A DNA stretch of 64,000 bases. Source: a virus. The notes beneath the pieces are model-generated. The model worked only from the letters and a program-made list of their open reading frames with translations. It was not told the DNA's origin and searched no databases. Positions within the stretch are counted from its first letter, which is position 1; every line of letters starts with the position of its first letter. Positions 7,007 to 49,019 of the stretch are shown piece after piece. The DNA is taken from IMG/VR virus record IMGVR_UViG_3300033997_000478, positions 1 through 64,000 of that record; one strand, given 5' to 3'. The translations under genes were made by a program, and so were the position numbers.

Positions 7007-7732
7007 GTGAATCCCTCGACTTGGGTGCGCGATTGGGACAAGGTGAAGAAATGCCTTGTCACCAATGCCGACAAGTCGGTGATGACCACCAAGGCAGTCA
7101 AGATCTATATCCCGGAGCGATACCGGGAGAAGTCGCTGGCTGAAATCGGAACCGATACGTACATCCTTGGGATGTACGCCTTGGTGGTGGAAGACAAGTA
7201 CTACGCGGTGAGCAATGTCTGTGGCATGGTGCGAATCAAGCCCAGCTCCATTGCCACCGTGAAGTACGAGGGGGAGTCCTACTTGGAGTTCTCCTTTGAT
7301 CCGGGCAGTGTGGTCATTGCGACCACCTCCCTGGTGCGCGATGACGTTCTGGTCTACCGCATCTTCCACTACTTCATCGCCGGCGGTCGTGTTCCGTTCT
7401 ACATGGACTACGACGATGCCTGCCAGCTGTTCAAGACAGCCGACAAGCACGCCAACGTCCGGCTTGCCCGCTCCCGCCCCATTCTGGAAATGTTTGCTGC
7501 CACGATCTCCCGAGATCCGAAGAAGCGAACTGAGTACTACCGCCATTCGTTGCCGCAGGGCACTGAAGCGCCGACCTTTGGTCCGGCCTTTGTGGCCATG
7601 CGCGACGTAACCATGGGTCCGACCAACACGACAGCACGCCTGCAAGGTGCGTACTGGAATGATGCTCTGACCTCCGCGCTCGTCAACCCCAGCTCCCGAC
7701 CGGAGCGGTTCGAGCAACTTCTGCGCGCTTAA
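7007..7732 (+). CDS. Hypothetical protein (241 aa), phiKZ gp176-like by position
   Basis: The start is GTG at 7007, ten bases after the preceding stop, with AAGG at 6993-6996 as a modest ribosome-binding site. The first 50 residues are basic and contain an IPERYREK segment; the middle part (IKPSSIATVKYEGESYLEFSF) looks like beta structure, and the second half looks helical. I recognise no enzymatic motif. It is immediately followed by the prohead protease, so a head-assembly or virion role is the simplest reading. Confidence 0.72.
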   Translation: MNPSTWVRDWDKVKKCLVTNADKSVMTTKAVKIYIPERYREKSLAEIGTDTYILGMYALVVEDKYYAVSNVCGMVRIKPSSIATVKYEGESYLEFSFDPGSVVIATTSLVRDDVLVYRIFHYFIAGGRVPFYMDYDDACQLFKTADKHANVRLARSRPILEMFAATISRDPKKRTEYYRHSLPQGTEAPTFGPAFVAMRDVTMGPTNTTARLQGAYWNDALTSALVNPSSRPERFEQLLRA

Positions 7733-7744
7733 GGAAACAGGTCC

Positions 7745-8524
7745 ATGAGTTTTTCTCTTTCCTGTACCGCGCTGGTGGGCACCAACAAAGCTGGCACCCT
7801 CAAGCCGGATGCAGATGGCTATTACCAAGTGGTTCTGGGCGCACTGGACGTTTACAACAACACCGGTGCGTTCTACCCCGAGGCCACGGCCCGTCAACTG
7901 TTCCAAGCGTCCTCCTCGCTGATGCGCCGCATCGCCTCGGGTAACCTCCGCGGCGAGTACGGTCACCCCACCCCGGAACCGGGCATGTCCATGGATGCCT
8001 TCGTTGCGCGCGTTCGCCGCATCGACGAAGACCGCATCTGCATGCACATCCGCAAGGTGTGGATCGATTACTCCTTCAAGAACCTGAAGGGGCAGCCGAT
8101 CATTGCGATCCTCGGTGAAATCCGTCCGTCCGGCCCGCGTGGTCCGGCACTGAAGGACCAGCTGGAGAATCGCTTCGAGGACGTGTGTTTCTCCATTCGT
8201 TCGCTGACCCACGACTTCAACTCCGGTGGTCGCCTGACGAAGAACTTCAAGATGATCGTGACGTGGGACTACGTCAACGAACCGGGCCTGGATGTTGCAC
8301 GCAAGTGGAACTCCCCGGCCATGGAAAGTCTGAAGGAGCCAGTACTGGCCAAGCAGCTGGAAGAGCGTTTCATCATGCCCTTCCAGATCGCCAACATGGC
8401 CAAGACCCAAGGGCCGAACATGCTCGGCATGGAAAGCAACGGCGGCGTCTCGCTGGAGGAGATGGCCGAAGTCATGTCCGAAGTCGAGAAGGAAACCACC
8501 CCTCCGGCCTGGATGAATTGGTAA
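7745..8524 (+). CDS. Prohead (capsid maturation) protease, S80/T4 gp21-like, phiKZ gp175-like
   Basis: The 259-residue protein carries the hallmarks of the herpesvirus-assemblin/T4 gp21 serine protease fold: NLRGEYGHP with the candidate catalytic His74, and FEDVCFSIRS with the candidate nucleophile Ser150 (the family pattern is a Ser in a strand followed by x-R). A plausible second His (His156, SLTHDF) follows. Such proteases clip scaffold and capsid proteins inside the prohead before DNA packaging. In phiKZ the homologue is gp175, next to gp176-gp178, which matches the gene order here. A good ribosome-binding site (AAGGAA) lies before ATG 7745. The last 40 residues are acidic. The catalytic assignments are by pattern only. 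Confidence 0.78.
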   Translation: MSFSLSCTALVGTNKAGTLKPDADGYYQVVLGALDVYNNTGAFYPEATARQLFQASSSLMRRIASGNLRGEYGHPTPEPGMSMDAFVARVRRIDEDRICMHIRKVWIDYSFKNLKGQPIIAILGEIRPSGPRGPALKDQLENRFEDVCFSIRSLTHDFNSGGRLTKNFKMIVTWDYVNEPGLDVARKWNSPAMESLKEPVLAKQLEERFIMPFQIANMAKTQGPNMLGMESNGGVSLEEMAEVMSEVEKETTPPAWMNW

Positions 8525-33103: not shown

Positions 33104-33736
33104 GTGAACAAGATCCTGATCAGCTCCATCCTGGTTGCGGCCCTGGTGGGTTGCAGCAAGGCTGAACCGGCGCAGACCACTACCACTGTCAAGGAGGTGG
33201 CTGCTGCTGAAACCGCACAGGCCCTGGCGGCCGAGGTGACTGCACTCCGGCAGGAGCTGGCAGCCAAGGACGTACAGGCCGCCACTGAAGCGGCCAAGTA
33301 CGTGGACGTCGACCCGGCGCTGTGGTCGCAGATTCCCAACAACCAGGCTCAGGCCGATGCATCCAAGGCAGCTGCCAAGGAACACATCGAATCGGGCAAG
33401 GCGTGGGACTACCTGCCCTCACAGCACGTCCAGGTCGATGGCTACCCGGTCTTTGACACGGTGACCTGTGACTTTGACGCTTTGCCCAACGCCTCCCTGT
33501 GCGAAGTCAACGGCAACGAAGCCGTCGATGAGTACTGGGTCAGCCTGCACACCACCGTAGTGGACAACCGTGACTTCTTCCGCAAGGACTGGATCTGCGG
33601 TCGCGTCTGCTTCGATGGCGCCGGCAACCTCGTCGGCTCGGTGAGCGAAGAGATGGTCAACTGGGTTACCGCCCAGTGCGACTGGTCTGTTTACACTGCG
33701 CCGGACTGCACCATCAACCGCAAGAAGAACCACTAG
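33104..33736 (+). CDS. Phage-encoded lipoprotein (210 aa)
   Basis: GTG 33104 has AAAGGAA just before it. The first 17 residues form a lipoprotein signal peptide: MNK, a hydrophobic core ILISSILVAAL and lipobox LVGC with the lipid-bearing Cys17. Ser at +2 predicts outer-membrane sorting in Gram-negative bacteria. A Glu/Ala/Thr-rich coiled-coil-like linker (residues 30-65) follows, then a C-terminal domain with six Cys that could form disulfides in the periplasm (VTCDF, SLCEV, WICGRVCF, AQCDW, PDCTI). Such phage lipoproteins often alter the host envelope, for example by blocking superinfection. That role is inference. Confidence 0.85.
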   Translation: MNKILISSILVAALVGCSKAEPAQTTTTVKEVAAAETAQALAAEVTALRQELAAKDVQAATEAAKYVDVDPALWSQIPNNQAQADASKAAAKEHIESGKAWDYLPSQHVQVDGYPVFDTVTCDFDALPNASLCEVNGNEAVDEYWVSLHTTVVDNRDFFRKDWICGRVCFDGAGNLVGSVSEEMVNWVTAQCDWSVYTAPDCTINRKKNH

Positions 33737-33747
33737 GAAAGCAATCA

Positions 33748-34215
33748 ATGTACAAAGAGAAGATCAACTACTTCGCCGGCACGATCATCCCCAAGTCTGC
33801 GGTGGATGGTTTTGAAGATACGCTGCGCGACCTGATCACCTTCGATGGTGTGGAGCGTAAGCTCCAGCGTATCGCCAACCGTGAAAGTGACAGCCGAGCA
33901 CGGGCCGGGCTGAAGAAGCCGGTAACCATTGCCGGCGAAGTAGTGGTCGACCTGAGGGGTGAGAATAAGCCGAACTTCTTCTTCACCGCCAAGTACGAGT
34001 TCGAGGCTGACGAGCTGGACTACAACGTCATCCTGCGCATCTCGGCGGAGCGCAGTGCGATCTTCAACGACATCTATCGGGAAGGCCTGATTCGCATGCG
34101 CGATCTGACTGACCTCAAGCCGCATTACAAGCCCGAAGATGCCGATAGGTTGGAGATGTTGGAGCAGACGATCGCCACGTTCCTCCATGACCTGTCATCC
34201 ATCCTCCCGCACTAG
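33748..34215 (+). CDS. Hypothetical protein (155 aa)
   Basis: ATG 33748 follows the lipoprotein stop by 11 bases, with AGGAAA upstream. The product begins MYKEKINYFAGTIIP, similar to the start of the next gene (MKFKEKITITLPPT), which hints at distant duplication. Strands dominate the middle (FFFTAKYEFEADELDYNVIL) and a helix ends it. Function is unknown. Confidence 0.7.
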   Translation: MYKEKINYFAGTIIPKSAVDGFEDTLRDLITFDGVERKLQRIANRESDSRARAGLKKPVTIAGEVVVDLRGENKPNFFFTAKYEFEADELDYNVILRISAERSAIFNDIYREGLIRMRDLTDLKPHYKPEDADRLEMLEQTIATFLHDLSSILPH

Positions 34216-34223
34216 GAGTCGTC

Positions 34224-34652
34224 ATGAAGTTCAAAGAGAAGATCACCATCACTCTCCCACCGACTTCACCAGGCGCTTACGACTCCAAGGCCTATGGTGA
34301 GGAGTTCGTGGGTGGGATGATCCGTGAAGCGGTGGCGGTCTTGGATCGTCACGCCAAACCACCTGAGATTGAGGTGAAGGTGTACGACCAGCCCCCACGA
34401 ACCCCGTCGGGATTCATGGAGATCGAGTACTCGGTCGAGTTTGAGTACATCTCCCTGTGCAATGTCAGTCAAGACCGGGTCCAGCAGTTTGATCGGGAGC
34501 GGACCAGCACTCAAGATGTGGTGGACGCGGTGATGACCATGCGGGCAGCTTCGATCGGGCAGATACTGCTGAACGCCATCCAGCATCCGGTCATCTACGG
34601 AAATTCGGACGTGATGATCGATATGATCGAGCTGCTTCCCAAGCAGATCTAA
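34224..34652 (+). CDS. Hypothetical protein (142 aa)
   Basis: AGGAG precedes ATG 34224. The layout (N-terminal strand MKFKEKITITLP, central strands, C-terminal helix) parallels the preceding gene. It closes the 32027-34652 unit and is followed by a terminator nine bases later. No domain is recognised. Confidence 0.7.
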   Translation: MKFKEKITITLPPTSPGAYDSKAYGEEFVGGMIREAVAVLDRHAKPPEIEVKVYDQPPRTPSGFMEIEYSVEFEYISLCNVSQDRVQQFDRERTSTQDVVDAVMTMRAASIGQILLNAIQHPVIYGNSDVMIDMIELLPKQI

Positions 34653-34660
34653 CGGCATAG

Positions 34661-34686
34661 CCCCTCCTCCCGATCGGGAGGAGGGG
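34661..34686 (+). terminator. Terminator hairpin (perfect 26-base palindrome-type stem)
   Basis: CCCCTCCTCCCG and CGGGAGGAGGGG pair completely around AT; GGCATAG precedes it. Confidence 0.8.
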
Positions 34687-34744
34687 CGGATAGGGTGCTT
34701 TTCTTTTTCGCTATTTTGTGGATACCAACACAGAGGAAACATCC

Positions 34745-35131
34745 ATGCAGTTCTACGAAGGTCTGGTCATCACGCGTAACGCCAACATGACCGACGACGG
34801 TGCCGACTGGACCGCCGACCTGGTCGCCCATTGCTCCGGTGATGGTGCGGTCAACCTCGGCGCCCAGCTGGTGGTCAGCGATGACCCGGATGCTCCGAAC
34901 TACTCGGTGGTCTACATCGCCGGCGTGCAAGCCGCACCGACCCTGGGCAACGAACGCCACGAACAGCCGCCGATCGAGTCGGATGTTCTGGACCAAGCGA
35001 TGGTCGAGAAGATCGCCAACCTGCGTGCCCGTGTCGTGGCTCGTCTGCTGTACATCGCCATTCGTCATGACGACCTGCTGTACATGGACAACCTGGAAAC
35101 CCTGCGAAACACCATCTCCCCGTCGTACTGA
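34745..35131 (+). CDS. Hypothetical protein (128 aa)
   Basis: GAGGAAAC precedes ATG 34745. The product begins with a strand (QFYEGLVITRNANMTDD), has an acidic middle and a C-terminal helical part (VEKIANLRARVVARLLYIAI). High-expression codons are used. It is a single-gene unit ending in a terminator shared with the convergent gene. Confidence 0.74.
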   Translation: MQFYEGLVITRNANMTDDGADWTADLVAHCSGDGAVNLGAQLVVSDDPDAPNYSVVYIAGVQAAPTLGNERHEQPPIESDVLDQAMVEKIANLRARVVARLLYIAIRHDDLLYMDNLETLRNTISPSY

Positions 35132-35172: not shown

Positions 35173-35973
35173 TTAGTTGTTTCCCCCCGTTAGGGTCCGC
35201 AGTGCTCTTTCGTAGCCCTTGCGATCGTCCATGAACATCACCTTTTGCCAGACTTCATCGATGTAGTCCAGATACATCTGGTTGGCGTCAGAGTAGCTGT
35301 CGATGATCTCGCGGTAACGACCCAGTTCCATACCACCGACCAGACGATTCATGCCGGTGGGGATGACCTGGTTGTTGTAGATGTAGGCCTTGGTTGCCAA
35401 CTCTACCAACTTGGAGAACGGGCGGTAGGTGGTCGGCTGGAGCGTGTTGAACTCGTCGTCGTATTCCAGATAGCAGCGCAGGAAGCAGGTGCGCGGCATC
35501 GACAGCACATCGCTGACCAGCAGGACGTTGTCACCGACCAGACGGATGTAGGCGGTGGAGACGATCGGGATACCCATCTGCGCATTCATCATGCCTTGGG
35601 CGGCATCGAGGATTTGCGAGTAGCCATTGACACCCATGTACGAGTTGTTCATCGTGTTGCTCGGACCGATGGTCAGCGAGACGACACGGGAGATCTTGCG
35701 GTTCTGGGTGAGGTTGGCCGGAATGCGGTAGATGTAGCGCGCGGTGTCGATTTGCTCAGCCGGCACGTTGTCCAGCGGGATCTCGATCATGTTGCCGCCG
35801 GCCAGATTGCAGTCGGGGATCACGCGCTCGTTGATCACCTTCTCCCGGATCATGGCATCCAGTGAAACCGGCATTGGAGTCCGGTTGAACTCCTTGCGGA
35901 TAAAGACCTCCTCAAGGATCTCTCGAGGAATGGCGAACTTGACGTCTTGGATCGCCTTTTGAAGAGCGCCCAT
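35173..35973 (-). CDS. Probable virion-associated protein (266 aa)
   Basis: AGGAGT precedes the ATG on the minus strand. The product has mixed alpha/beta character with strand-rich residues 60-170 (ARYIYRIPANLTQNRKISRV; LVGDNVLLVSDVL) and a helical, acidic C-terminal part (YSDANQMYLDYIDEVWQKVM). Other minus-strand genes in this window are mostly virion proteins, which is the only hint at function. No motif is recognised. Confidence 0.72.
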   Translation of the reverse strand: MGALQKAIQDVKFAIPREILEEVFIRKEFNRTPMPVSLDAMIREKVINERVIPDCNLAGGNMIEIPLDNVPAEQIDTARYIYRIPANLTQNRKISRVVSLTIGPSNTMNNSYMGVNGYSQILDAAQGMMNAQMGIPIVSTAYIRLVGDNVLLVSDVLSMPRTCFLRCYLEYDDEFNTLQPTTYRPFSKLVELATKAYIYNNQVIPTGMNRLVGGMELGRYREIIDSYSDANQMYLDYIDEVWQKVMFMDDRKGYERALRTLTGGNN

Positions 35974-36623: not shown

Positions 36624-37607
36624 ATGAGTATCGAAGAGACCCCGCGCGGCAAGATCAGCCTGTACGGCGCCGGCGGCGCTGGCATCAACCTGGTCAGCAG
36701 CTGGAACGACGCGCACAACGACCACGCCACGGGGCAGGCTCTGCTGCAGGTGTCCTACGTGGACACCTCCAAGTCCAACCTCCCCGCCAGCGTCAATCCG
36801 GAAACCGTGTACGTGCTCGATGGCGTGGACGGCTCGGGCAAGATCCGCAGCGAGAACCACGTGGAAATCTCGCGCAACATCCGCAGCGTGCTGCAGAAGC
36901 ATGCGCCGGGTGACCTGAGCGTGGTGGTGTTCTCCGCCTCCGGCGGTTCTGGTTCGGTGTTCGGCCCGCTGCTGATCGCCGAACTGATCAGCACCGGCAA
37001 TCCGGTGGTGGGCGTGGTGGTGGGTTCGGAAGAATCCAAGATCACCACCGAGAACACCCTCAAGACCCTGAAGACCCTGGAACACATCGCCCAGTCCAAG
37101 GGCGTGCCGGTGGTCATCAGCTACCACCACAACAAGGCCGGCACCAAGCGCTCGGACAACGACAAGGCAGCCCGCCGCGTCATGGCCACCCTGAGCGTGC
37201 TGGCTTCGCGCCGCAACACGGCGTTGGACACCAAGGACATCGCCAACTGGCTCGAATACACCCGCGTGGCCCCGGCCATCAAGCCGCAGCTGTCGCTGCT
37301 GCACGTGTACGACCAGATCGACGACGTCCAGAATGCCACCCGGCCGATCTCCATCGCCGCGCTGCTGAAGGACCCGGACGAGCCGACCTTCGACGTGCCC
37401 TGCGAATACGAGACCACCGGCTACCCCAAGAACTGGCCGGACGGCTTCAACCAGCTGTTCTTCGTCATCAACGTCGATGGCGTGCCGGTCGTGGAGAAGA
37501 TGGTCAAGGACCGTCTGGAAGGTCTGGAGAAGGCCAGCGCTTCGCGCGTGACGCGTGACTCCATGGTCGACGGCAAGGACAACATCGTCGGCGACCTGAT
37601 CCTGTAA
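36624..37607 (+). CDS. phuZ: Phage tubulin PhuZ
   Basis: The 327-residue protein is a tubulin/FtsZ-fold GTPase of the PhuZ type. It shows the N-terminal nucleotide loop YGAGGAGIN (residues 14-22), LQVSYVDTSKSN in the T2-T3 region and the G-box FSASGGSGSVFGP (103-115), where cellular tubulins have GGGTGSG. FNQLFFVINVDG (about 285) is the C-terminal-domain strand. PhuZ filaments form the spindle that centres the phage nucleus and carries capsids to it. Codons are of the high-expression kind; AGGAAG precedes the ATG and a strong terminator follows. Its presence is strong evidence for a nucleus-forming phage. Confidence 0.93.
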   Translation: MSIEETPRGKISLYGAGGAGINLVSSWNDAHNDHATGQALLQVSYVDTSKSNLPASVNPETVYVLDGVDGSGKIRSENHVEISRNIRSVLQKHAPGDLSVVVFSASGGSGSVFGPLLIAELISTGNPVVGVVVGSEESKITTENTLKTLKTLEHIAQSKGVPVVISYHHNKAGTKRSDNDKAARRVMATLSVLASRRNTALDTKDIANWLEYTRVAPAIKPQLSLLHVYDQIDDVQNATRPISIAALLKDPDEPTFDVPCEYETTGYPKNWPDGFNQLFFVINVDGVPVVEKMVKDRLEGLEKASASRVTRDSMVDGKDNIVGDLIL

Positions 37608-37616
37608 CCGACAACG

Positions 37617-37638
37617 CCCCCTCCCTTCGGGGAGGGGG
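37617..37638 (+). terminator. phuZ terminator
   Basis: CCCCCTCCC and GGGGAGGGGG arms with a TTC loop are followed by TTATG. Confidence 0.85.
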
Positions 37639-37651
37639 TTATGGAACCCCC

Positions 37652-37846
37652 ATGAACGATACCTTTGTCTGCGACACCTGCGGCTGCATCGATCAACTCG
37701 AGCTGGCCGGAATCACCAACCCCTGCGGGAATCTCCAATGCACCCAATGCGCTTCCGGGACGTGGCACGATCTGTTTCCGAGGAGGCAGTACAATCCGAT
37801 CACCGATTTGGTCGTGAACCGACCCAACGGCATCGGGATCGGGTAG
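37652..37846 (+). CDS. Small zinc-ribbon-like protein (64 aa)
   Basis: The product has two Cys-x2-Cys knuckles, VCDTCGC (residues 6-12) and QCTQC (residues 29-33, with CGN before), as in minimal zinc ribbons or rubredoxin-like folds. Its 3' end overlaps the next ORF for about 109 bases in another frame. The short spacer after the phuZ terminator (TTATGGAACCCCC) lacks a good ribosome-binding site, so expression is less certain. Confidence 0.55.
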   Translation: MNDTFVCDTCGCIDQLELAGITNPCGNLQCTQCASGTWHDLFPRRQYNPITDLVVNRPNGIGIG

Positions 37847-38313
37847 CCAACCAAAACCCGGCCATCACCATCCTCGTTCCGTGGGAGGACCCTGAGTTCT
37901 TCGACGAAGACGATCGACTGGCCTGCGATGAACTGACCATCGACCTCAACTACCTGTTCGTTGAGGCCGCAGGGTTCATGCCCTTGTTGGAGGTGGAGTA
38001 TCACTCCACCCAATTCATGGCCGTACTGGACATGAACTACAACGTGGTCTGGGATTGCCTGTGGAACATGTTCGAGGCGTGCGCCGACGACCAGCGGGTC
38101 ATGTCGCGCGATGCTTACATCGGACTGGCCGAACAGCACATCCACACACTGGTCCATACCACCGGCCGGATCATGGAGTGGATGGCGTGGCGGTGCAGTA
38201 ATTTCGCCGCTCCTCGTGAAGGTATGCATCCGCTCCACACGTACATCGACAATGCCGAATGGCGGCCGGGGGTGGGCGTATACATCTCCTTTGACTTCAG
38301 CGATGCGTATTAA
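37738..38313 (+). CDS. Strand-helix-strand family protein 1 (up to 191 aa)
   Basis: The likely functional part starts around residue 40 with the strand AITILVPWEDPEF, then a helical core with Cys and Trp (VVWDCLWNMFEACADDQRVM) and ends with the strand GVGVYISFDF. This N-strand/helical core/C-strand plan recurs in about ten consecutive genes up to 42727. The start is uncertain: ATG 37738 or 37747 both overlap the zinc-ribbon ORF, and no better start lies downstream. No known domain. Confidence 0.65.
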   Translation: MHPMRFRDVARSVSEEAVQSDHRFGREPTQRHRDRVANQNPAITILVPWEDPEFFDEDDRLACDELTIDLNYLFVEAAGFMPLLEVEYHSTQFMAVLDMNYNVVWDCLWNMFEACADDQRVMSRDAYIGLAEQHIHTLVHTTGRIMEWMAWRCSNFAAPREGMHPLHTYIDNAEWRPGVGVYISFDFSDAY

Positions 38314-38324
38314 GGATAGTTGAA

Positions 38325-38747
38325 ATGAACCAACCCAAAGGCTTGACTGTCCATTTTGATCCGGCTGAGTTTGCTGGACCGCAGGACAGGCAGTTGCTGG
38401 AAAGCTTGAATCTGGCGATGGCTGATCTGGTCAACGTGGTACTCTGGGTGTGGCCTTCCTTCAAAGACGACCCCAGTCGCACCTATGAGGTGATCGTCGA
38501 TGAAATCGCCGAGATGGTGATGGGCGACGTCGAAGACCATCGGGCCACGGCGCTGTGCGAAGGAGCCGATCAGGTGGTAGATTTGTGCACCCGGATCTAC
38601 AGCCACCTAGAGCCGTCCATCAGGGACCTACCCGATCAGCTGTACGATGCAGTCAATAGCGGACTGCGCTCGGACCTGGACAGCGGAATCATGCATGTAC
38701 TGCGCGAGGTCCCGCAGGGCAAGATGCTGCTCTTGTCGATGGATTAA
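38325..38747 (+). CDS. Strand-helix-strand family protein 2 (140 aa)
   Basis: The product begins with strand LTVHFDPAEF, has an acidic helical core (TYEVIVDEIAEMVMGDVEDH) and ends REVPQGKMLLLSMD. This matches the layout of the neighbouring genes. AAGGATAG precedes ATG 38325. A double terminator follows, so genes 37738-38747 may form the first sub-block of the array. Confidence 0.72.
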   Translation: MNQPKGLTVHFDPAEFAGPQDRQLLESLNLAMADLVNVVLWVWPSFKDDPSRTYEVIVDEIAEMVMGDVEDHRATALCEGADQVVDLCTRIYSHLEPSIRDLPDQLYDAVNSGLRSDLDSGIMHVLREVPQGKMLLLSMD

Positions 38748-38753
38748 CATACG

Positions 38754-38807
38754 GCCCGGCCTCGCCGGGCTTTATGCCGCTAAAAGCCCCTCAGACGCGT
38801 TCTGAGG
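38754..38807 (+). terminator. Double terminator
   Basis: The first hairpin is GCCCGGC/GCCGGGC (38754-38770) followed by TTTATG. The second is CCTCAGA/TCTGAGG (38789-38807). Confidence 0.78.
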
Positions 38808-38901
38808 CCCGTACGTTATTTGCCACACCGTTCCGTAATCTAGTGTATGGAAAGGCCGCCAAGGCGCGCCTGTTGGCCTTCCCTTCAAAGAGACATTTTC
38901 C

Positions 38902-39294
38902 ATGAACCCTCAGACGCGCCAATATCCGAGTAAGTTCGTGCTCTCAATAGCCAATATCGAGACCGAACTGATGGCTTTGACCGAAGCCACAATGCAGCAG
39001 ATGGGCCGCAACAAAGATGACGAACCATTCCGCGATCAACTGATCCGGGCGTGGGTGGTGCATCAGTTGCAGCGTGAGCTGTATCTGACCTTCGATCGAG
39101 ATCGCACGTACAACGAAGCACAGACCATGTTCTTCGAGACCCCGCCGTCGTACTTCAACACCCACCGACACCTGATTGATCAGTTTGTCGGCCAAGTCCG
39201 CCCCGTGCTGAGCGTGGGACCGGACATCCCTTACAACGAGCGCATCTGTACGGTGGAGTTCTGGCTCCCCAACCTGACGCTCAAGTTCCTATAA
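38902..39294 (+). CDS. Strand-helix-strand family protein 3 (130 aa)
   Basis: The start SKFVLSIANIETELMALTEA (residues 10-29) is clearly related to SKYFIISIAEEVDVLMMSIE of the next gene, and the following DEPFRDQLIRAW resembles its NNPLRQQLLPA. The end LPNLTLKFL is the C-terminal strand. AAAGAGA precedes ATG 38902. Together these show that at least these two genes arose by tandem duplication. Function is unknown. Confidence 0.75.
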   Translation: MNPQTRQYPSKFVLSIANIETELMALTEATMQQMGRNKDDEPFRDQLIRAWVVHQLQRELYLTFDRDRTYNEAQTMFFETPPSYFNTHRHLIDQFVGQVRPVLSVGPDIPYNERICTVEFWLPNLTLKFL

Positions 39295-39302
39295 AGAGAA
39301 AA

Positions 39303-40025
39303 GTGACCGCCATGGCAAATCTGCCTGAAAGTAAGTACTTCATCATCTCCATCGCCGAGGAGGTGGATGTGCTGATGATGAGTATCGAGGAAATGGCGGC
39401 AGGCATGTTCGACAACAACCCTCTGCGCCAGCAGTTGCTGCCGGCAGTATCGGAGGAGACGAAGGGGTTCAACCCCGTGACGTGCGCAGAGCTGGCCAAA
39501 GCGTACTACCTGAACTGTCTGCAGGAAACCGCCCTGTGGATGGAAAAGGCCGGTACCAAACAGGACTACGTGGTGGACCAGCTGGGGGTGATGATCCCGA
39601 TGTGGAATGATGTCGATTCCAAGACGCAAGATGACATCGTCCGTTTTGTTGAGGCAGCCTTTGCCGAAACGGCCAACGACAATCTGGTGCTGTTCGATGG
39701 CCCAGATCCGAATTGGCGTGTGTGGGCCGCACGCACGCTCAGCACCAATGCACTGGTGTTGGAGAATGTGGGCGACTTCCGCATTCTGGATTGGGAGCGC
39801 CGAATGGGCCTGACCGAACAGGCCGAGAAGGACGGCGTGGAAGTTTCCGAAGATGCGTGGGATGTGGATGAGGATATGCGTACCTTCGCCCAGCTCAACA
39901 GCATCCGGGCCAGCAAGTCGACCTCGGTCCGGTTGTATGCGGTGGATGTACTGGATCATCGCAAGGCCAAGGCTCAAGGTCGCGGTAGCAGGATCGTCGC
40001 CCGTGCAGTCCGCCACGACCTCTAA
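39303..40025 (+). CDS. Strand-helix-strand family protein 4 (240 aa)
   Basis: GTG 39303 is used because AAGAGA lies at good spacing; ATG 39312 is the alternative. The N-terminal 60 residues are paralogous to the preceding gene. It is longer than its relatives, with an acidic middle (GVEVSEDAWDVDEDMRTF) and a basic tail (DHRKAKAQGRGSRIVARAVR) that overlaps the next gene. The internal VRLYAVDVLD may be the C-terminal strand. Function is unknown. Confidence 0.72.
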   Translation: MTAMANLPESKYFIISIAEEVDVLMMSIEEMAAGMFDNNPLRQQLLPAVSEETKGFNPVTCAELAKAYYLNCLQETALWMEKAGTKQDYVVDQLGVMIPMWNDVDSKTQDDIVRFVEAAFAETANDNLVLFDGPDPNWRVWAARTLSTNALVLENVGDFRILDWERRMGLTEQAEKDGVEVSEDAWDVDEDMRTFAQLNSIRASKSTSVRLYAVDVLDHRKAKAQGRGSRIVARAVRHDL

Positions 40026-40500
40026 ACTACCCCCCTCGTTGCGACAGACCAATGCGCAACGTCGCTTCAACCCCAAACCACGGCACATCATCGTCGACCT
40101 GAAATGGTTCGGCGAACGGATCGAGACCACCATTGAGCATTACTTGGGAACGGCCTCGTTCGTGGACTACTCCGTGTTGGCAGACTTCATCGCTGGCGGG
40201 CTGGAACAGATTTTTTACGGGGCAGCATTTACTGGTGAGGCCACGCTGGAAGGTCTGTTGGCTGAGTACCGAGTTCCCCGTGACGTAGCCCGTCAATTGC
40301 TCGATGAATTGGACATCGCAGTCCAGCGGTATTTCGACCAGGAGTTCGGTGGTCGAGATTCAGCCAACGAATACAACTTCCGCCTACTCTCGGCCAATAC
40401 GGTGATCCTCACCGAAAGCCAGCCGGTTCCAGAGTTTCGGAAGGGCTACCTACTTACGGAGTCACCGCATGACCTTTACATCGAGGTACCAACTCTCTGA
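40003..40500 (+). CDS. Strand-helix-strand family protein 5 (165 aa)
   Basis: GTG 40003 is the most plausible start, overlapping the preceding gene by 23 bases; the frame is open further upstream inside that gene. After a basic leader the product follows the family plan: strand HIIVDLKWFG, helical core (SVLADFIAGGLEQIFYG; RDVARQLLDELDIAVQRYF), strand NTVILTESQPV. It overlaps the next gene by 32 bases. Function is unknown. Confidence 0.68.
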   Translation: MQSATTSKLPPSLRQTNAQRRFNPKPRHIIVDLKWFGERIETTIEHYLGTASFVDYSVLADFIAGGLEQIFYGAAFTGEATLEGLLAEYRVPRDVARQLLDELDIAVQRYFDQEFGGRDSANEYNFRLLSANTVILTESQPVPEFRKGYLLTESPHDLYIEVPTL

Positions 40501-40984
40501 TCACGAGGATGACCGCGCGGTCGACTACACCAACGTGATCATCCCCATCGAAGATGTGTGGCATGAGCTCTATCAAGATTACCGACTCTTCTCACATCTG
40601 GAGTTGGACCCAAGCGAAGTGATCAAAGCGGCCATCGCCTACGCAATCGCTGGCACCCGCACTGATGACAGTCCGTTGGTCTTCACCAACGCCTTCGCTC
40701 GTGTCAACGCCCACATGCAGGCCTATCAGCTGATCGTCGACCGGGCGCAGTATCCGGACGAGGTGATGCAAGAGGGAGCTTCGCATCTAGACGTCCATCG
40801 GTTGGTGGACATTATCGGTAAGGTCGCTTATCGTCTGACCGAGGCACTGCTGCTCAACCTTGGCACTGTGCCACTGCAAACCCGTCTTCACCGATTCCTC
40901 GGCCGAGACATCATTCTTCTGATACCAACCGAGGTACACCGTGGGCATGAACGTAATCTTGCCCGTTCGAATTCCCGACTCTGA
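40469..40984 (+). CDS. Strand-helix-strand family protein 6 (171 aa)
   Basis: The family plan is strand NVIIPIEDVW, helical core (VIKAAIAYAIAG; AHMQAYQLIVDRAQ) and the ending LHRFLGRDIILLIPTEV. The RFLGRDIILLIP element corresponds to RYLAQDVMVRIEP and RWIDEDFIVSIP in the next two proteins. The gene overlaps both neighbours, so translation is coupled. Confidence 0.72.
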   Translation: MTFTSRYQLSDHEDDRAVDYTNVIIPIEDVWHELYQDYRLFSHLELDPSEVIKAAIAYAIAGTRTDDSPLVFTNAFARVNAHMQAYQLIVDRAQYPDEVMQEGASHLDVHRLVDIIGKVAYRLTEALLLNLGTVPLQTRLHRFLGRDIILLIPTEVHRGHERNLARSNSRL

Positions 40985-41369
40985 TCGAGTTGCGGTAGAA
41001 CGGGCCATGGAAGCATGCCGGAACAAGCTGGACTTCACCGACTTTCTGATGCTCGCCTTCGAGTATTGGGATCTGGGCGATGACGGCCAGTATTCCGGGA
41101 TGCAGGACGACGCTCTCCGAGATGTCTTGCGCGGCCACCTGAACAAGGTGCTGCCTAAGATCGTCCATACTTACGCCCAGCTGGAACAGCTGACGGCGTT
41201 GGTGATGCACGCAGTGACGGTATTCCGTACCGCCGCTTACACTTCACTGGGCCCCATCGTGGAGTCCCTCAACGCACCGGTGACGATGTACTTCGTGCGC
41301 TATTTGGCACAAGACGTCATGGTGCGGATCGAACCGGAATGGGAGGCTACGTCTCATGAGCAGGAATGA
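40941..41369 (+). CDS. Strand-helix-strand family protein 7 (142 aa)
   Basis: GTG 40941 is used (GAGG at 40932-40935); ATG 40947 is the alternative. The product begins with strand NVILPVRIPD, has a helical core and ends YFVRYLAQDVMVRIEPEWE. It belongs to the tandem family. Function is unknown. Confidence 0.72.
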   Translation: MGMNVILPVRIPDSDRVAVERAMEACRNKLDFTDFLMLAFEYWDLGDDGQYSGMQDDALRDVLRGHLNKVLPKIVHTYAQLEQLTALVMHAVTVFRTAAYTSLGPIVESLNAPVTMYFVRYLAQDVMVRIEPEWEATSHEQE

Positions 41370-41835
41370 ACGAGACCGCGCCTACCTGGTCTTCAATGGC
41401 CGGGAGATCATCGGTGAGATCAAGCCGTCCTCGACCTTGCTGGAAACCCTGGAGCTCACCCCGCGTACGGTCGTGCGTGAGATCTTGGAGGTGGTGTTTA
41501 GCGCCAACAAGTACCAGCATATCCAGCCGCCGATTGCCGCAGCCCACATCCCCGGTGCTGGCCAGTTGATCCGCGCCACCTACGCAGTGCAGGAGATGAT
41601 CGAATCCAACTGGATGGAGCAGCTGGAAGAGACCTCTGAGATCGCCCGCCGAGCTCGGGAGGACATAGCCGCCCTGCGTCAGCTGTTGTATTCGATCTGG
41701 ACTCTGATCAGTGATGAGCTGATCTATCTGATTGAAGCCTTCAAGCTCAGTGACGCTGAGATCCGCGATCTGCGTTTTGAACGCTGGATCGATGAGGACT
41801 TCATCGTGTCCATTCCATCCCGCCGGAGGAAGTAA
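41356..41835 (+). CDS. Strand-helix-strand family protein 8 (159 aa)
   Basis: The N-terminal strand is AYLVFNGREIIGEI, the core is helical (EMIESNWMEQLEETSEIARR) and the ending FERWIDEDFIVSIPSRRRK carries the family C-terminal strand plus a basic tail. It overlaps its upstream neighbour by 14 bases and the next start (TAATG). Function is unknown. Confidence 0.72.
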   Translation: MSRNERDRAYLVFNGREIIGEIKPSSTLLETLELTPRTVVREILEVVFSANKYQHIQPPIAAAHIPGAGQLIRATYAVQEMIESNWMEQLEETSEIARRAREDIAALRQLLYSIWTLISDELIYLIEAFKLSDAEIRDLRFERWIDEDFIVSIPSRRRK

Positions 41836-42350
41836 TGCAGAAACCCAAGACGATCGCCCGCTACGGGCAGATCAGGCCGGCCAGGCTGATCTTGGACCCG
41901 CAACTGAGTGACGAGCAGATCATCGCCCTGAATCAGTTCACCTACGAATGCGATGCCACGTTGACGGGCACGGCGAAAGCGCCGGTGTGGATGATGGTGG
42001 CACAAGGCATTTTGGATGTGGTGTGTCGCCATGAACGCGACCATGTCACTGCCGTGGACACAGCAGCAATGCTGGGCAGTCAACCCAAGCCCGCACGACC
42101 GCAGGTCGACCCCAGCGAGTTGTGTGATCACGTCTATGGCTTGTTCGAGTCATTGCCGATTCCGATGCTCAATGCCGAACGGGTCTACGACGAACCGATG
42201 CGTACGTTGCTGGTCCATCTGTACGAAGCAATGCAGCAGTACGTCCCGCAGCTGCTCGGTACTTCGATGTGGTCTCGTTTCGAGAACTTCATCCAAGTCG
42301 AACGTTTCGGCTCGCGTATGCTGGAGCTGCACTTTACGAGGCCGGTGTGA
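41835..42350 (+). CDS. Strand-helix-strand family protein 9 (171 aa)
   Basis: ATG 41835 overlaps the previous stop (TAATG). The plan is strand ARLILDPQLSD, helical core (VWMMVAQGILDVVCRHERDH; LVHLYEAMQQYVPQLLG) and ending RFENFIQVERFGSRMLELHF. It belongs to the tandem family. Function is unknown. Confidence 0.72.
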   Translation: MQKPKTIARYGQIRPARLILDPQLSDEQIIALNQFTYECDATLTGTAKAPVWMMVAQGILDVVCRHERDHVTAVDTAAMLGSQPKPARPQVDPSELCDHVYGLFESLPIPMLNAERVYDEPMRTLLVHLYEAMQQYVPQLLGTSMWSRFENFIQVERFGSRMLELHFTRPV

Positions 42351-42727
42351 GTTACTCACTCCCGACTCGGGTGGTCCTCTCCGGCCGCGAGGCCGGAGTG
42401 CGACCGCAATCCTTGATTAACGGCATGATCCAGCGCCCCATGGACCTCAATGCCTACGGCGACATGATGGTCCAGATGATGCGGGCAGTGCACGACAACT
42501 GGTCAATTGCCCAGCGCTCAGAACTGGCGATGTATTTCCTGCGTGGCTTCGAATTGAAGGACGTGGAAGACCCCGGCTTTGACCAACGCATCATGTTGGA
42601 AGCGGTCAACTTCGGTGCACTGATGTTCCTTGAGAACTGGCGCGCAGCAGTGCCGAGCTGGGTACCTCTGAACCAGTACCATTTCGATCGCTGGATTGGC
42701 TGGGACTTGGTCCTGGTCAGGCAGTAA
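42347..42727 (+). CDS. Strand-helix-strand family protein 10 (126 aa)
   Basis: GTG 42347 overlaps the previous TGA (GTGA) with GAGG ahead (42338-42341). The plan is strand TRVVLSGREAG, helical core (DMMVQMMRAVHDNWSIAQRS) and ending YHFDRWIGWDLVLVRQ, where RWIGWDLVL matches RWIDEDFIV of member 8. It is the last clear family member. Confidence 0.7.
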   Translation: MSYSLPTRVVLSGREAGVRPQSLINGMIQRPMDLNAYGDMMVQMMRAVHDNWSIAQRSELAMYFLRGFELKDVEDPGFDQRIMLEAVNFGALMFLENWRAAVPSWVPLNQYHFDRWIGWDLVLVRQ

Positions 42728-42761: not shown

Positions 42762-43169
42762 ATGCTCAATCAATCTGACATCGTCCTGGGCACGACCGTC
42801 ACTTTCGATCTGTACCCGTTTGCCCTGTTCGGCACGACCATCAAGAATGCGAAGGTCCTCTCGCTGCTCGATGGTCAAACCGCCCAGGTGCTAGGCTACG
42901 ACCCCCGTAGCCTGCATGTACAGGTCTACCCGACCCTGCCGCCCGGTACGCCCGACGGCTTTGACAAGTACTTCTACCTCCAGGTGCTGCTGCCCTCCGG
43001 TCAGCGCGCCGTCTACGGCCTGCCGTGGATCAAGAGCGAGACGTACAAGACTGAAGTGATGCGCGACATCATGATCCGCTTGAACGGGGTCACCCCGGAC
43101 AAGGAAAATCAGATCCGTCGCGCCCTGGCCAACATCGACCAGCCGATCACTTCGCTTGATGTAGTGTGA
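42762..43169 (+). CDS. Hypothetical protein (135 aa)
   Basis: The first 80 residues look like a small beta-barrel (TTVTFDLYPFALFGTTIKNA; LHVQVYPTLPPGTPDGFDKY), similar to the SH3-like barrels of many jumbo-phage small proteins; the C-terminal 45 residues are helical. Codons are of the high-expression kind. The ribosome-binding site is weak (GTAGGCGC). Function is unknown. Confidence 0.72.
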   Translation: MLNQSDIVLGTTVTFDLYPFALFGTTIKNAKVLSLLDGQTAQVLGYDPRSLHVQVYPTLPPGTPDGFDKYFYLQVLLPSGQRAVYGLPWIKSETYKTEVMRDIMIRLNGVTPDKENQIRRALANIDQPITSLDVV

Positions 43170-43422: not shown

Positions 43423-45642
43423 ATGCATCATTTCGTAAATCCGGCTGACACGTACGTCCGCAAAGTCGACATTCGACGCACGTATGTCGAGGACACAGCG
43501 CGTTACCTGTCGCTGATGACCAAGCAGCCCTATGACTACTGCTTGAATTTCGTATCAACCCTGGTCGGCCCCGGCGGCACCATGGAGATGAAAGACCCGG
43601 AAGTCATGGTGCTACGCCGTGGCGAGAACGGGGACCGCGAGAAGATCTTCACCACGTTCGGGGGATTCCTGCAATCGGTGTATTCCGAGAACCAGATGCT
43701 GTCCCCGTCGATGACCGCTTATATCCACCCGGACAAGCAGAAGTCGATCCTGGCTCTGTACATTGACGGCAACTTGCAGCTTCGTAAAGAGGCCAAGCAT
43801 GAGATGTTCGTCGCCCAGATGGCCGGTGATGAGATCAAGCGCAAGATCCAGAACTCCAAGCAGACCACGTTCAAGATCAAGAACAACTCGCTGTCGGGCG
43901 CGCACAGCTCGCCGTACACGATCCTGTGGAATAAGTCCAGCCACTCCACGCTGACCTCCACCTGCCGTGTTGCCGTGTCCTACGGCAACACCAACAACGA
44001 GAAGTTCCTGTACGGTAACCGGCATTACTGGTGCCCGGACGTGGCCCGCAATAACATCATCTCCATCATCAACCACACCGATCTGGAGAAGGTCGCTGCG
44101 GTAATGACCAAGTACGGCCTGAAGGCGCCCAGCGTGGAGCTGGTGATGTCGTTGCTGGAACGCTCCACGGAGAACTACTGGCGCAGTACCGAGGAAATGG
44201 CCCGCCTGCGACTGCTGGTGGAGGCACTGGACGATACCCAGCGTTCGGCCTTCGCCTACGTCTCAGATCTGTACCACCTGTCGCTGGGTAACGATGAGTT
44301 CGTTCGCGAGTTCTTCCGTCGCATGTCCAAGCATGACCTTGAACCCATCACCGATATGGACGAGGCCGACAAGTGGACCAGCAAGAAGATGATGGACGAC
44401 AACCTGCTGGCCTTCGTTGGCATGTTGTGCTCGGAAGAGCTGGGTGGCGGTACGCTCAATAACGTCCACGGCGATAACACCAACCTGAAGCTGAAGGACG
44501 TTCGTCCCAAGGACTATGGCGTGTTCGCAGCCACGGTGCGCAACGTCCATGAAACGCTGGACTACTACGAAGATTTCATCCGTGCATTCTGGGTCACCCC
44601 CAACCTGCCGGCTTCGGTCTTCCAAGCGCCGAGCATCATCCGTCGTGGCGCCATTGCCTCGGATACCGACTCGACCATCTTCACCGTGCAGCACTGGACC
44701 ATGTGGTATCGTGGCCAGCTGGACTTCACCAAGGAGTCTGAGGACGTCGCATCGACTGCGGTGTATCTGGCCGGTCAGCTGATCCGTCACGTTCTGGCAA
44801 CCACCTCCGGTGCAATGGGTGTGGCCAAGCAGTTCGTTAACAAGCTGTCGATGAAGAACGAGTTCTACTTCAAGGTGTTCTTCTTGACCTCCCGTGCCAA
44901 GCACTACTACGCCTATCAGGCAGCACAGGAAGGTAACGTCTTTAAGAAGATGAAGAAGGAGATCAAGGGTGTTGCACTGCGCAACTCCAACATCCCGCCT
45001 TCAATCACCAAGAAGTCCAACGCGCTGCTGACCTACGTGATGGATTCGGCACTGCGACTGGAAGAGATCGATCCGCGTCGTCTGCTGCGTTACGTGGCCA
45101 AGGTGGAAGATTCCATCCGTTCTGAAGTGTACCGTGGTTCTTACGACCTGCTGGCAACGGTGGGTATCAAGGCACCTGATGCGTACAAGAAGGGCGAGGA
45201 CACCCCGGCTTATCAGCACTACCTGATGTGGGAGGAGGTCTTTGCCACCACCTACGGTCATGCCCCGCCACCGCCCTACGGTGCGGTCAAGGTTCCGGTC
45301 AAGCTCGAGAAGAAGATCGAGATGAAGGAATGGCTGGACAACATGGAAGACCAAGTGATCGCAGATAAGTTGCGCGCTTGGAATGCCAACACAAAGGGCA
45401 CGATGGCTGTCATGTACCTGCCCGAGCAGGTGTTGGGTATGACAGGTATCCCCAAGGAAATCATCGCCGCGGTGGACATCCGTCCGCTGATTGCGCAGAT
45501 GATGGAAGCGTTCTACCTGATCCTTGAGTCGGTGGGCCTTTTCATGAAGAACGCAGACAACACCCGTCTGGTCTCCGATGAAAAGTGGCTGCTGCGTGAG
45601 GACTGGCCGCTTCCGGAACTGGACATCGACCATTTGGGTTAA
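43423..45642 (+). CDS. Family B DNA polymerase, palm/fingers/thumb part (phiKZ gp44-like)
   Basis: The 739-residue product shows the motif B-like KIKNNSLSGAHSS near residue 145 (family pattern K-x3-N-S-x-Y-G) and the motif C Asp-Thr-Asp-Ser at residues 414-417 (IASDTDSTIF), one of the two catalytic metal sites. KxY-like RAKHYYAYQAA follows near residue 488. No 3'-5' exonuclease motifs are seen N-terminal to the polymerase part, and motif A is not clear, so the exonuclease may be a separate protein, as I believe it is in phiKZ. The enzyme would replicate phage DNA inside the nucleus. Gene order PhuZ, polymerase, ChmA matches phiKZ gp39, gp44, gp54. Confidence 0.82.
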   Translation: MHHFVNPADTYVRKVDIRRTYVEDTARYLSLMTKQPYDYCLNFVSTLVGPGGTMEMKDPEVMVLRRGENGDREKIFTTFGGFLQSVYSENQMLSPSMTAYIHPDKQKSILALYIDGNLQLRKEAKHEMFVAQMAGDEIKRKIQNSKQTTFKIKNNSLSGAHSSPYTILWNKSSHSTLTSTCRVAVSYGNTNNEKFLYGNRHYWCPDVARNNIISIINHTDLEKVAAVMTKYGLKAPSVELVMSLLERSTENYWRSTEEMARLRLLVEALDDTQRSAFAYVSDLYHLSLGNDEFVREFFRRMSKHDLEPITDMDEADKWTSKKMMDDNLLAFVGMLCSEELGGGTLNNVHGDNTNLKLKDVRPKDYGVFAATVRNVHETLDYYEDFIRAFWVTPNLPASVFQAPSIIRRGAIASDTDSTIFTVQHWTMWYRGQLDFTKESEDVASTAVYLAGQLIRHVLATTSGAMGVAKQFVNKLSMKNEFYFKVFFLTSRAKHYYAYQAAQEGNVFKKMKKEIKGVALRNSNIPPSITKKSNALLTYVMDSALRLEEIDPRRLLRYVAKVEDSIRSEVYRGSYDLLATVGIKAPDAYKKGEDTPAYQHYLMWEEVFATTYGHAPPPPYGAVKVPVKLEKKIEMKEWLDNMEDQVIADKLRAWNANTKGTMAVMYLPEQVLGMTGIPKEIIAAVDIRPLIAQMMEAFYLILESVGLFMKNADNTRLVSDEKWLLREDWPLPELDIDHLG

Positions 45643-47090: not shown

Positions 47091-49019
47091 ATGGCCACCA
47101 ACACCCCGAACGACAACAACAACGAAACCGGCACCACCAGCGCAGAAGCCATCTTCAACCGCAACTCCGGCAACACCGCCGGTGCCCAGAACGCCGGTGG
47201 CAGCCAGAGCGGCGGCTTCAACCGCAATGCCGGCCGCGCTGCCCGTCCGGGCCTGACCGCTCGCCTGAGCGGCGCACGTGGCGTGGTCTCGCGCCGCCGT
47301 CCGGGTGCCGAACTGGAAGTCATGCGCAAGGCCTTCGAAGAGGCCCTGAGCCAGTTCCACACCTCCGGCCGCCTGCAGGGCGGTGAGAACCTGAAGCTGA
47401 TGCTGATCGATCGCCAGGAACTGGACCGCAAGGTCGAGCTGCTGGTTGCCTACATCCCGATGACCGTCGACAACCAGCTGCACGTGTCGATCTACACCGT
47501 GATCCTGGCCGACCAGAGCGAGAACCTGGACAGCATCAAGTTCCAGGGCACCGGCGGCCGCAACTTCGCCTACACCGTGACCGCAGGCGACGCCTGGGAT
47601 CGCAACCTGTGGGTGAAGGTCGCAGCGATCGTGCAGGAAAACATGGGCGCTGTCGCCATCCAGCACAACGCCGGCGCGCAGGTCATCCCGGCCGAAACCG
47701 ACGTCACCGACAAGGGCCTGATCCACGGCCTGGCGTTCTTCGTCTCCGAAGGCCTGACCCGCACCATCACCGACAAGATCCTGAAGTCCACCGATGACGT
47801 GATCTCGGTCGCCGACATCGGCGACGACGAAATCGTCGAAGGCAAGCTGGTCTACAGCACCCTGCCGCTGACCACCGCCGCCGGCCTGCCGCTGCGTGGT
47901 GACATCCAGGCCAAGCTGAGCTACAGCCAGCGCGGCAACGAGGGTGACCAGCGTGAACGTGCCTTCAGCCTGGACAACAGCCGTCCGCTGGCCGGCGCCG
48001 CCGGCTTCATCGACCTGGGCTGGGAAGACCCGCAGCAGCCGGCCTTCGGCCAGCAGCCGGCCACCCAGCGCTACCGTGCACGCTTCGTCATGACCCGCCT
48101 GGACACCGAAGGTGACTGGATCACCCCGGAACTGCAGCTGCTGTCGCTGGCCGGCGCCACCCTGGTGGCACGTCAGATGGCCTGGGCTCGCATCTGGTCG
48201 CAGGAGTTCCGTACCAAGGAACACGACATCGGCGTGATCGGCTACGAGCTGGCTCCGGGTGGCGAAGCTGAGCGCATCAACACCTCGGCCGCAGCCTTCA
48301 CCAACGAAGCGCTGTACCAGCTGGTGTCGGCGACCATCTACCCGGACATCCTGTTCCAGCTGGACATCGAAGAAGTCGGCGAGCTGTCGTTCCAGAACCG
48401 CGTGCTGCTCGACGCTGCCAACAACAACGCCGATGCGCAGGACGCCGTGATCGCGGCCGCCAACAACCTGACCAACAACGAGTTCACCCGTCTGTGGCAG
48501 GCCGGCACCCCGTTCGTCATGAACGATGGCAACCGCATCCACCTGGGCTACTACGAAGCCAACGACGGTCAGCGTCGTGACATCCGTGACCTGGACTACC
48601 TGTTCATGCTGGAGCGCTTCGGCGCGCAGGATCCGAAGATGGTCGAGCGCTGGCAGGCGACCTTCGACGACGTCGAACGCGACGAAGTCGAGCGTGTGGC
48701 TGAGCGTGAAGACATGATCCGCAAGATCCTGGGCCCGACGGTGACCATCACCGGCTACGCTCGTCGCGTGACCTTCCACCCGCAGGCCCTGGACGTCCTG
48801 CTGGCCGCTTGCGGCGCAGCCGGCCTGACCATCCGTCAGGACTCGCAGTCCTACGGCTTCACCGGTTCGGCCGCTCGCGGTCGTGCTTCGGGCGGTGCCT
48901 TCGCCTTCGGCGGCGGCGCTACGAACAACCTGTTCAGCTCGGGCGTCACCGGCAGCCGTGGTCGCGGCTTCGGCTCCACCTTCACCGGTGGTTCGACCTG
49001 GCGTGGTCGCGGTAACTGA
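47091..49019 (+). CDS. chmA: Putative phage nuclear shell protein (chimallin, ChmA)
   Basis: The 642-residue protein has the size of known chimallins (about 630 residues) and lies immediately upstream of the RNA polymerase beta-prime N-terminal gene, as phiKZ gp54 does next to gp55. Codon use is the strictest in the window, as expected for the most abundant early protein. The first 65 residues and the last 50 look disordered and are rich in Gly, Arg, Asn and Ser (GSRGRGFGSTFTGGSTWRGR), while the middle is a folded alpha/beta core. Chimallin assembles into a one-protein-thick lattice that encloses phage DNA. I could not align the core to a known chimallin, so the call rests on size, context and abundance; another abundant phage protein is possible. 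Confidence 0.65.
   Translation: MATNTPNDNNNETGTTSAEAIFNRNSGNTAGAQNAGGSQSGGFNRNAGRAARPGLTARLSGARGVVSRRRPGAELEVMRKAFEEALSQFHTSGRLQGGENLKLMLIDRQELDRKVELLVAYIPMTVDNQLHVSIYTVILADQSENLDSIKFQGTGGRNFAYTVTAGDAWDRNLWVKVAAIVQENMGAVAIQHNAGAQVIPAETDVTDKGLIHGLAFFVSEGLTRTITDKILKSTDDVISVADIGDDEIVEGKLVYSTLPLTTAAGLPLRGDIQAKLSYSQRGNEGDQRERAFSLDNSRPLAGAAGFIDLGWEDPQQPAFGQQPATQRYRARFVMTRLDTEGDWITPELQLLSLAGATLVARQMAWARIWSQEFRTKEHDIGVIGYELAPGGEAERINTSAAAFTNEALYQLVSATIYPDILFQLDIEEVGELSFQNRVLLDAANNNADAQDAVIAAANNLTNNEFTRLWQAGTPFVMNDGNRIHLGYYEANDGQRRDIRDLDYLFMLERFGAQDPKMVERWQATFDDVERDEVERVAEREDMIRKILGPTVTITGYARRVTFHPQALDVLLAACGAAGLTIRQDSQSYGFTGSAARGRASGGAFAFGGGATNNLFSSGVTGSRGRGFGSTFTGGSTWRGRGN

Follow-up and report, generated by a model that had tools for sequence, protein, structure and literature searches.

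The window analysed here (64,000 nucleotides, positions 1 to 64,000 of the IMG/VR virus record IMGVR_UViG_3300033997_000478), part of a 324-kb virus record, features a row of ten small plus-strand genes, m1 to m10, between the tubulin gene phuZ and the SH3-like gene m11. A first-pass annotation of this DNA had proposed an undescribed set of paralogues with one common layout. This is supported for most members by profile and fold; for m3 and m9, membership is based solely on where they lie and on their visible layout. The window phage is assigned to the chimalliviruses, i.e., phiKZ-like, nucleus-forming jumbo phages, because its sequence encodes PhuZ, chimallin and a phiKZ-type DNA polymerase. 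Among named phages, the closest relative found is Xanthomonas phage LucasX. Upstream, the array is bordered by phuZ (36624-37607; PHROG tubulin PhuZ 6e-90, 53% identity to LucasX) and a zinc-ribbon gene, downstream by the pair of m11 (42762-43169) and a family B-like DNA polymerase gene (43423-45642; phiKZ gp50; 65% to LucasX, 36% to phiKZ). The protein encoded by m11 is an orthologue of phiKZ gp49 (BLASTP 3e-18; PHROG 3235) and lies outside the array family. Further downstream follows the gene of the nuclear shell protein ChmA (chimallin; 47091-49019; phmmer 1e-33 to phiKZ gp54 and 7e-46 to the Ea35-70 nuclear shell protein), all of these genes being encoded on the plus strand.

As described in the first-pass annotation, many of the ten genes downstream of phuZ overlap or abut according to their open reading frame coordinates. 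These are m1 (37738-38313), m2 (38325-38747; LUCX_47 slot, BLASTP 4e-5), m3 (38902-39294; LUCX_48 slot, BLASTP 2e-19), m4 (39303-40025), m5 (40003-40500), m6 (40469-40984), m7 (40941-41369), m8 (41356-41835), m9 (41835-42350; assigned to the LUCX_53 slot by position only) and m10 (42347-42727; last slot, 39% to LUCX_54). The overlaps comprise 1 base between m8 and m9, 4 bases (GTGA) between m9 and m10, and 14-44 bases for m5/m6, m6/m7 and m7/m8. Either GTG at 40003 or TTG at 40039 serves as the start of m5, and m10 starts with GTG at 42347. In LucasX, an unannotated m6 orthologue (L003 15640-16302; 1e-11) overlaps LUCX_50, and therefore the LucasX array has ten members as well.

The beginning of the array had been set at 37738, which falls within a gene missed at that stage, m0 (37652-37846, plus strand). 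It encodes a zinc-ribbon-like protein of 64 amino acids (CxxC...CxxC), an orthologue of LUCX_45 (BLASTP 57%) that is also found in DT01 and many viral contigs. The open reading frame of m1 opens within m0, and its strand-coding part begins directly after the m0 stop (37844-37846). Likewise, in the window, LucasX and the contigs L013 and L015 this part follows or spans the m0 stop with no ATG, GTG or TTG before the strand, and the frame of m1 relative to m0 is always equal in these four phages lacking an ordinary start codon. L018 differs by an ATGA overlap of both genes. Possible starts of m1 are a site inside m0, a rare start codon or a frameshift; the constant frame offset in five phages would suit a -1 frameshift that fuses m0 to m1, but these share no slippery heptamer. 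Between phuZ and m0 (37618-37651), GC-rich inverted repeats occur, CCCCTCCCTTCGGGGAGGGG followed by GGGGGTTATGGAACCCCC, the second arm of which touches the m0 ATG; a terminator or translation control is possible. At position 168581 of the genome, 31 base pairs match the 3' end of phuZ, probably by coincidence of codons.

The overall sequence identity between the array proteins is very low, and kinship was assessed by comparing array gene families with control families, i.e., other small genes of the same loci, using hhalign. A probability of at least 10% was reached by 31 of 703 array-array pairs (at least 70% by 12 of them), by 1 of 1254 array-control pairs and by 0 of 496 control-control pairs, some of the array-array links joining orthologues and not different slots. 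Cross-slot links within one genome were obtained for m6 and m8 (80%), m8 and m10 (73%, C-terminal hairpin only) and m4 and m5 (76%), and adjacent genes of L063-type contigs were linked at 49%. An iterated search from the last-slot family, with m10 in its seed, retrieved m6 (4.7e-14), m8 (3.5e-11), m10 (3.2e-12) and the L013 orthologue of m7 (7451-7837; 6e-13), m7 itself being marginal (0.017); large hits to L040 "controls" are array genes of that contig and not true controls. In addition, slot profiles (S) built by synteny were compared with family profiles (Q) excluding the window lineage. High probabilities resulted for S10-Q0 (95%), S8-Q5 (97%), S6-Q5 (96%), S7-Q5 (89%, precisely 88.6%), S4-Q1 and S5-Q2 (99% each) and between families for Q1-Q2 (84%), and among the slots for S6-S8 (91.6%) and S8-S10 (81.7% over 23 columns). 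The links S1-S2 (59.8%), S2-S7 (45%) and S2-Q5 (36%) were weaker, with a control maximum of 10.4% over 350 pairs. Moreover, paralogues are detectable by BLASTP inside single genomes.

By these profiles, m4, m5, m6, m7, m8 and m10 are homologous to array genes of other phages, and shared ancestry could be shown for at least six of the ten genes, joining m4 with m5 (76-84% between m5 and the m4 family) and m6, m7, m8 and m10 together. The sequence profiles link m1 and m2 weakly to each other, and m4/m5 are connected to the m6/7/8/10 group at low probability (15-25%). Profile similarity thus reaches past m6, m7, m8 and m10; m3 and m9 stayed unlinked (S3-S9 4.9%, within the control range), and the visible duplication claimed for m3 and m4 was not significant in pairwise BLASTP (E=0.1). 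The m4 gene is a single-copy anchor with 59 hits in 58 loci, the m5 profile family occurs in 43 loci, and phiKZ gp43 matches the m4 profile at 8e-21 and the m5 profile less, at 8e-4. The most conserved feature of the array is a DYRIxDW motif that follows the last strand and is diagnostic of the m4/phiKZ gp43 family in most loci.

Nearly all of the proteins had been described as a strand, a helical core and a final strand. In a strand-propensity test against neighbouring genes of the same loci, the array proteins scored higher at the N-terminus (1.32 vs 1.30, p=2.7e-9) and at the C-terminus (1.29 vs 1.24, p=1.6e-10) and not in the middle (p=0.45), the end effect per protein being modest. Strand-like ends are accordingly commoner than in neighbours, yet the structure models end in a beta-hairpin, i.e., two strands. 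The R-F/Y/W-x3-D motif noted in m6, m7, m8 and m10, four genes that belong to a single profile family, was confirmed as a feature of array C-termini (8.7%, compared with 1.8% in controls; p=1.5e-7). The AlphaFold2 model of m10 (120 sequences) is good, with a predicted local distance difference test score (pLDDT) of 85.9 and a predicted template modelling score (pTM) of 0.79. Its topology of strands (E) and helices (H) is E-H-H-H-H-E-E, with strands at 8-11, 111-117 and 120-125. For m4 (53 sequences) a moderate model of lower confidence was obtained (pLDDT 75.3, pTM 0.66), in which helices follow a strand and lead to a hairpin (139-147, 150-158), with additional helices towards the C-terminus. 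Hence, in both models a predicted beta-alpha4-beta-beta core is common, the structural claim of one topology standing for these two and the C-terminal part being a hairpin.

Foldseek searches of BFVD with m10 mostly returned chimallivirus proteins (four of RP12, four of LucasX by length, two of Eowyn), and m4 recovered an overlapping set including entries that match LUCX_50 and LUCX_54 by length. The fold support for other slots consists of such hits, assigned to LucasX or Eowyn array proteins by organism and length; most matches have E >0.01 and TM scores of 0.3-0.6, so that the overlap of the lists and not single hits represents the evidence. Against the PDB, the m10 model gave no significant match (best E=0.38, TM 0.25). 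Profile matches in the PDB to the designed protein THR6 and to the secreted effectors 3naw/3sqv (1e-3) were set aside as low-complexity helical or partial stretches, and the m10 model shows no fold match. The idea that phiKZ gp43 consists of two array domains in tandem was unsupported when checked. Among 120 members of the m10 family, not a single position is invariant, i.e., no conserved catalytic residue is seen, and therefore an enzymatic function appears unlikely.

The array is not peculiar to the window phage and occupies the same genomic place across chimalliviruses. Equivalent rows occur in LucasX (LUCX_46-54), Eowyn (74-84), DT01 (134-142), Ea35-70 (209-215), phiKZ (43-48), PhiPA3, 201phi2-1 and SPFM2, the latter having no annotated phuZ there. 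Among 80 viral contigs brought in by a polymerase profile search, a row of typically 7-12 small genes was found wherever the upstream DNA suffices, and in nearly all loci it abuts the SH3-polymerase pair; JM-2012 has few array genes. A recognisable ChmA was encoded in 52 of 54 array loci with at least 5 kb of downstream sequence. In AR9, the polymerase-adjacent region showed neither a comparable gene row nor an array profile match; AR9 is a member of the PBS1 group, and chimallin is reported to be absent from PBS1 (PMC10299810). The array has a fixed genomic place and appears chimallivirus-specific.

In the last-slot family tree (53 rows; branches are long and many forks weakly supported), copies group by their distance from the SH3 gene and not by genome. 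The tree requires 7 changes of slot label, with a minimum possible of 5 and a shuffled mean of 22.7, and a likely recent copy was found only in L070 (slots 2 and 5). In view of this slot-wise clustering, the duplications of this family are, as judged from the tree, old and retained in order. Between close relatives, 7-9 slots pair as reciprocal best hits, and the gene-wide ratio of nonsynonymous to synonymous substitution rates (dN/dS) is 0.03-0.52, mostly 0.1-0.3, for array genes and 0.06-0.12 for the polymerase; at larger distances, synonymous divergence saturates. The array genes change at about two to three times the rate of the polymerase, yet under constraint.

Paralogues that are old, ordered and constrained would be expected of differentiated subunits or adaptors more than of an arsenal in constant turnover. 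The leading reading, held tentatively, is therefore that the array encodes differentiated subunits or adaptors of one assembly, with most members being old paralogues with one core fold. More specifically, and more doubtfully, they may form a paralogue-built hetero-oligomeric machine of 7-12 differentiated subunits with an undescribed fold, their genes lying in order next to those of PhuZ, DNA polymerase and chimallin, and be dedicated to the phage nucleus or the replisome. Small, mostly acidic, presumably non-enzymatic proteins with a core of a strand, about four helices and a beta-hairpin would have specialised by slot into the different subunits or adaptors, which would pack via a three-stranded sheet of the N-terminal strand and the C-terminal hairpin and act in the infected cell within the nucleus or replication programme. 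The overlapping genes would aid a co-translational, balanced assembly, and mutual co-adaptation of the subunits would account for the rapid drift in sequence. Several observations weigh against this assembly: the slot profiles S3 and S9 are unlinked to other slots; the gene number varies (3 in EL, 8 in DT01, up to 12 in others), which is odd for a fixed complex; PhiPA3 gp38-45 lie outside the top-25 ChmA and RecA proximity lists (PMC10643120); and phiKZ 043-048 are absent from the hit table of a knock-down study (PMC12571901), in which they may not have been among the tested genes.

A rather unlikely alternative is a host-takeover or counter-defence kit, in which each protein binds a different host target, e.g., a defence protein, polymerase or nuclease, and diversifies with the host. 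Divergence is indeed faster than in the polymerase (30% vs 66% identity between the window and LucasX or L013), the proteins are of small size and acidic, with a median charge of -7 against -3 for neighbouring genes, gene number differs among lineages and duplication is occasionally recent, as in L070. Nevertheless, the rapid diversification against host factors, one of two readings offered in the first-pass annotation, is disfavoured by the slot-wise grouping, by dN/dS well below 1 and by slots that correspond one to one, old duplications having been retained in order. Positive selection or gene turnover in close relatives was not observed, with gene-wide dN/dS mostly 0.1-0.3 and slots retained. 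Moreover, profile searches of the 324-kb record with the m10 and m4 families gave no further copy elsewhere in the genome, and PADLOC, which is a defence and not a counter-defence library, gave one hit at 0.052 only. A hetero-oligomeric assembly, the other of the two readings, would accordingly fit these sequence patterns better than host-directed diversification.

The position beside polB would also suit accessory subunits or regulators of the adjoining DNA polymerase and SH3 protein that adapt the replisome. Iyer 2021 (PMC7824862) suggested that the SH3 protein might be a subunit of the polymerase and stated that these phages lack a classical sliding clamp. This role is unlikely, however, because phuZ and chmA cluster here too and proximity is thus unspecific, AR9 has a related polymerase without such a row beside it, and the phiKZ knock-down hits include gp49 and gp50 but do not list gp43-48 (PMC12571901). 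Still less probable is a role of some members in importing proteins into the phage nucleus (Imp class), with a separate subset of cargo licensed by each. The array tracks ChmA, import relies on more than one factor, combined differently for different cargo (PMC13282480), and many small adaptors with divergent surfaces would suit it, but no array protein appears in the PhiPA3 shell-proximity top list (PMC10643120). Chance likeness of unrelated small genes, or a row of virion parts, is very improbable despite the unlinked m3 and m9 and the very low identity, as profile links far above controls, overlapping Foldseek neighbours and the slot-conserved tree make chance unlikely for m4-m8 and m10, and 201phi2-1 gp74-80 carry no mass-spectrometry note, unlike gp73, gp81 and gp98, the absence of a note being weak evidence.

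Besides the array, a second row of three small plus-strand genes (u1-u3; 33676-35131) is positionally equivalent to LUCX_37-41, u1 resembling LUCX_40 (BLASTP 0.002). On the minus strand, 35173-35973 carries a PHROG 3179 gene, and the compared phages have a similar-sized minus-strand gene there (phiKZ gp42 slot); the phiKZ gene of this slot is a strong knock-down hit without assigned function (PMC12571901).

Most chimallivirus core proteins have no assigned function, and the array genes diverge too fast for easy capture in similarity-based core-gene lists. Plain similarity searching overlooks this conserved multi-gene feature, which emerges when position, profile and fold are combined. If the one-assembly reading is true, the array would represent a multi-subunit part so far missing from the phage-nucleus life cycle and a case of viral subunit diversification by paralogy; as a host-takeover kit, it would amount to a collection of new inhibitors of the host. 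Under either reading, phiKZ gp43-48 are concrete, testable targets.

In line with the first-pass annotation, no described family or fold with this layout, and no publication on the array, turned up in the libraries and literature searched: Pfam, NCBIfam, PADLOC and PHROGs gave no usable hit for any of the array proteins, and no paper naming phiKZ gp43-48 was found. Protein family and array appear undescribed in these sources, although their function may prove of a known kind. Sequences of members have existed for a long time under the label of hypothetical proteins, and PHROG 14023, with unassigned function, covers part of the m4 family (11 of 53 members, best 1e-47) but misses m4 itself and does not cover other slots. 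The rows of phiKZ gp43-gp48, PhiPA3 gp38-45, 201phi2-1 gp74-80 and LucasX LUCX_46-54 share the place from phuZ to the SH3/polymerase genes and have similar sizes, all being annotated as 'hypothetical'. In phiKZ-type arrays, however, most slots are too diverged for sequence pairing, phiKZ has fewer slots, and its gp43, the orthologue of m4 (profile 6e-20), is longer (357 amino acids). The SH3-fold protein phiKZ gp49 (Iyer 2021) is a fixed neighbour of the array but belongs to a separate SH3-like family. PicA/Imp1, ChmB and ChmC are likewise multi-component proteins of the chimallivirus nucleus programme, yet they are encoded at other loci (phiKZ 002, 067, 069) and are not mutual paralogues as far as described. 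Phage anti-defence islands resemble the array as rows of small, fast-evolving genes without assigned function; unlike them, the array has no defence-related profile hit and combines a conserved slot order and ancestry with purifying selection.

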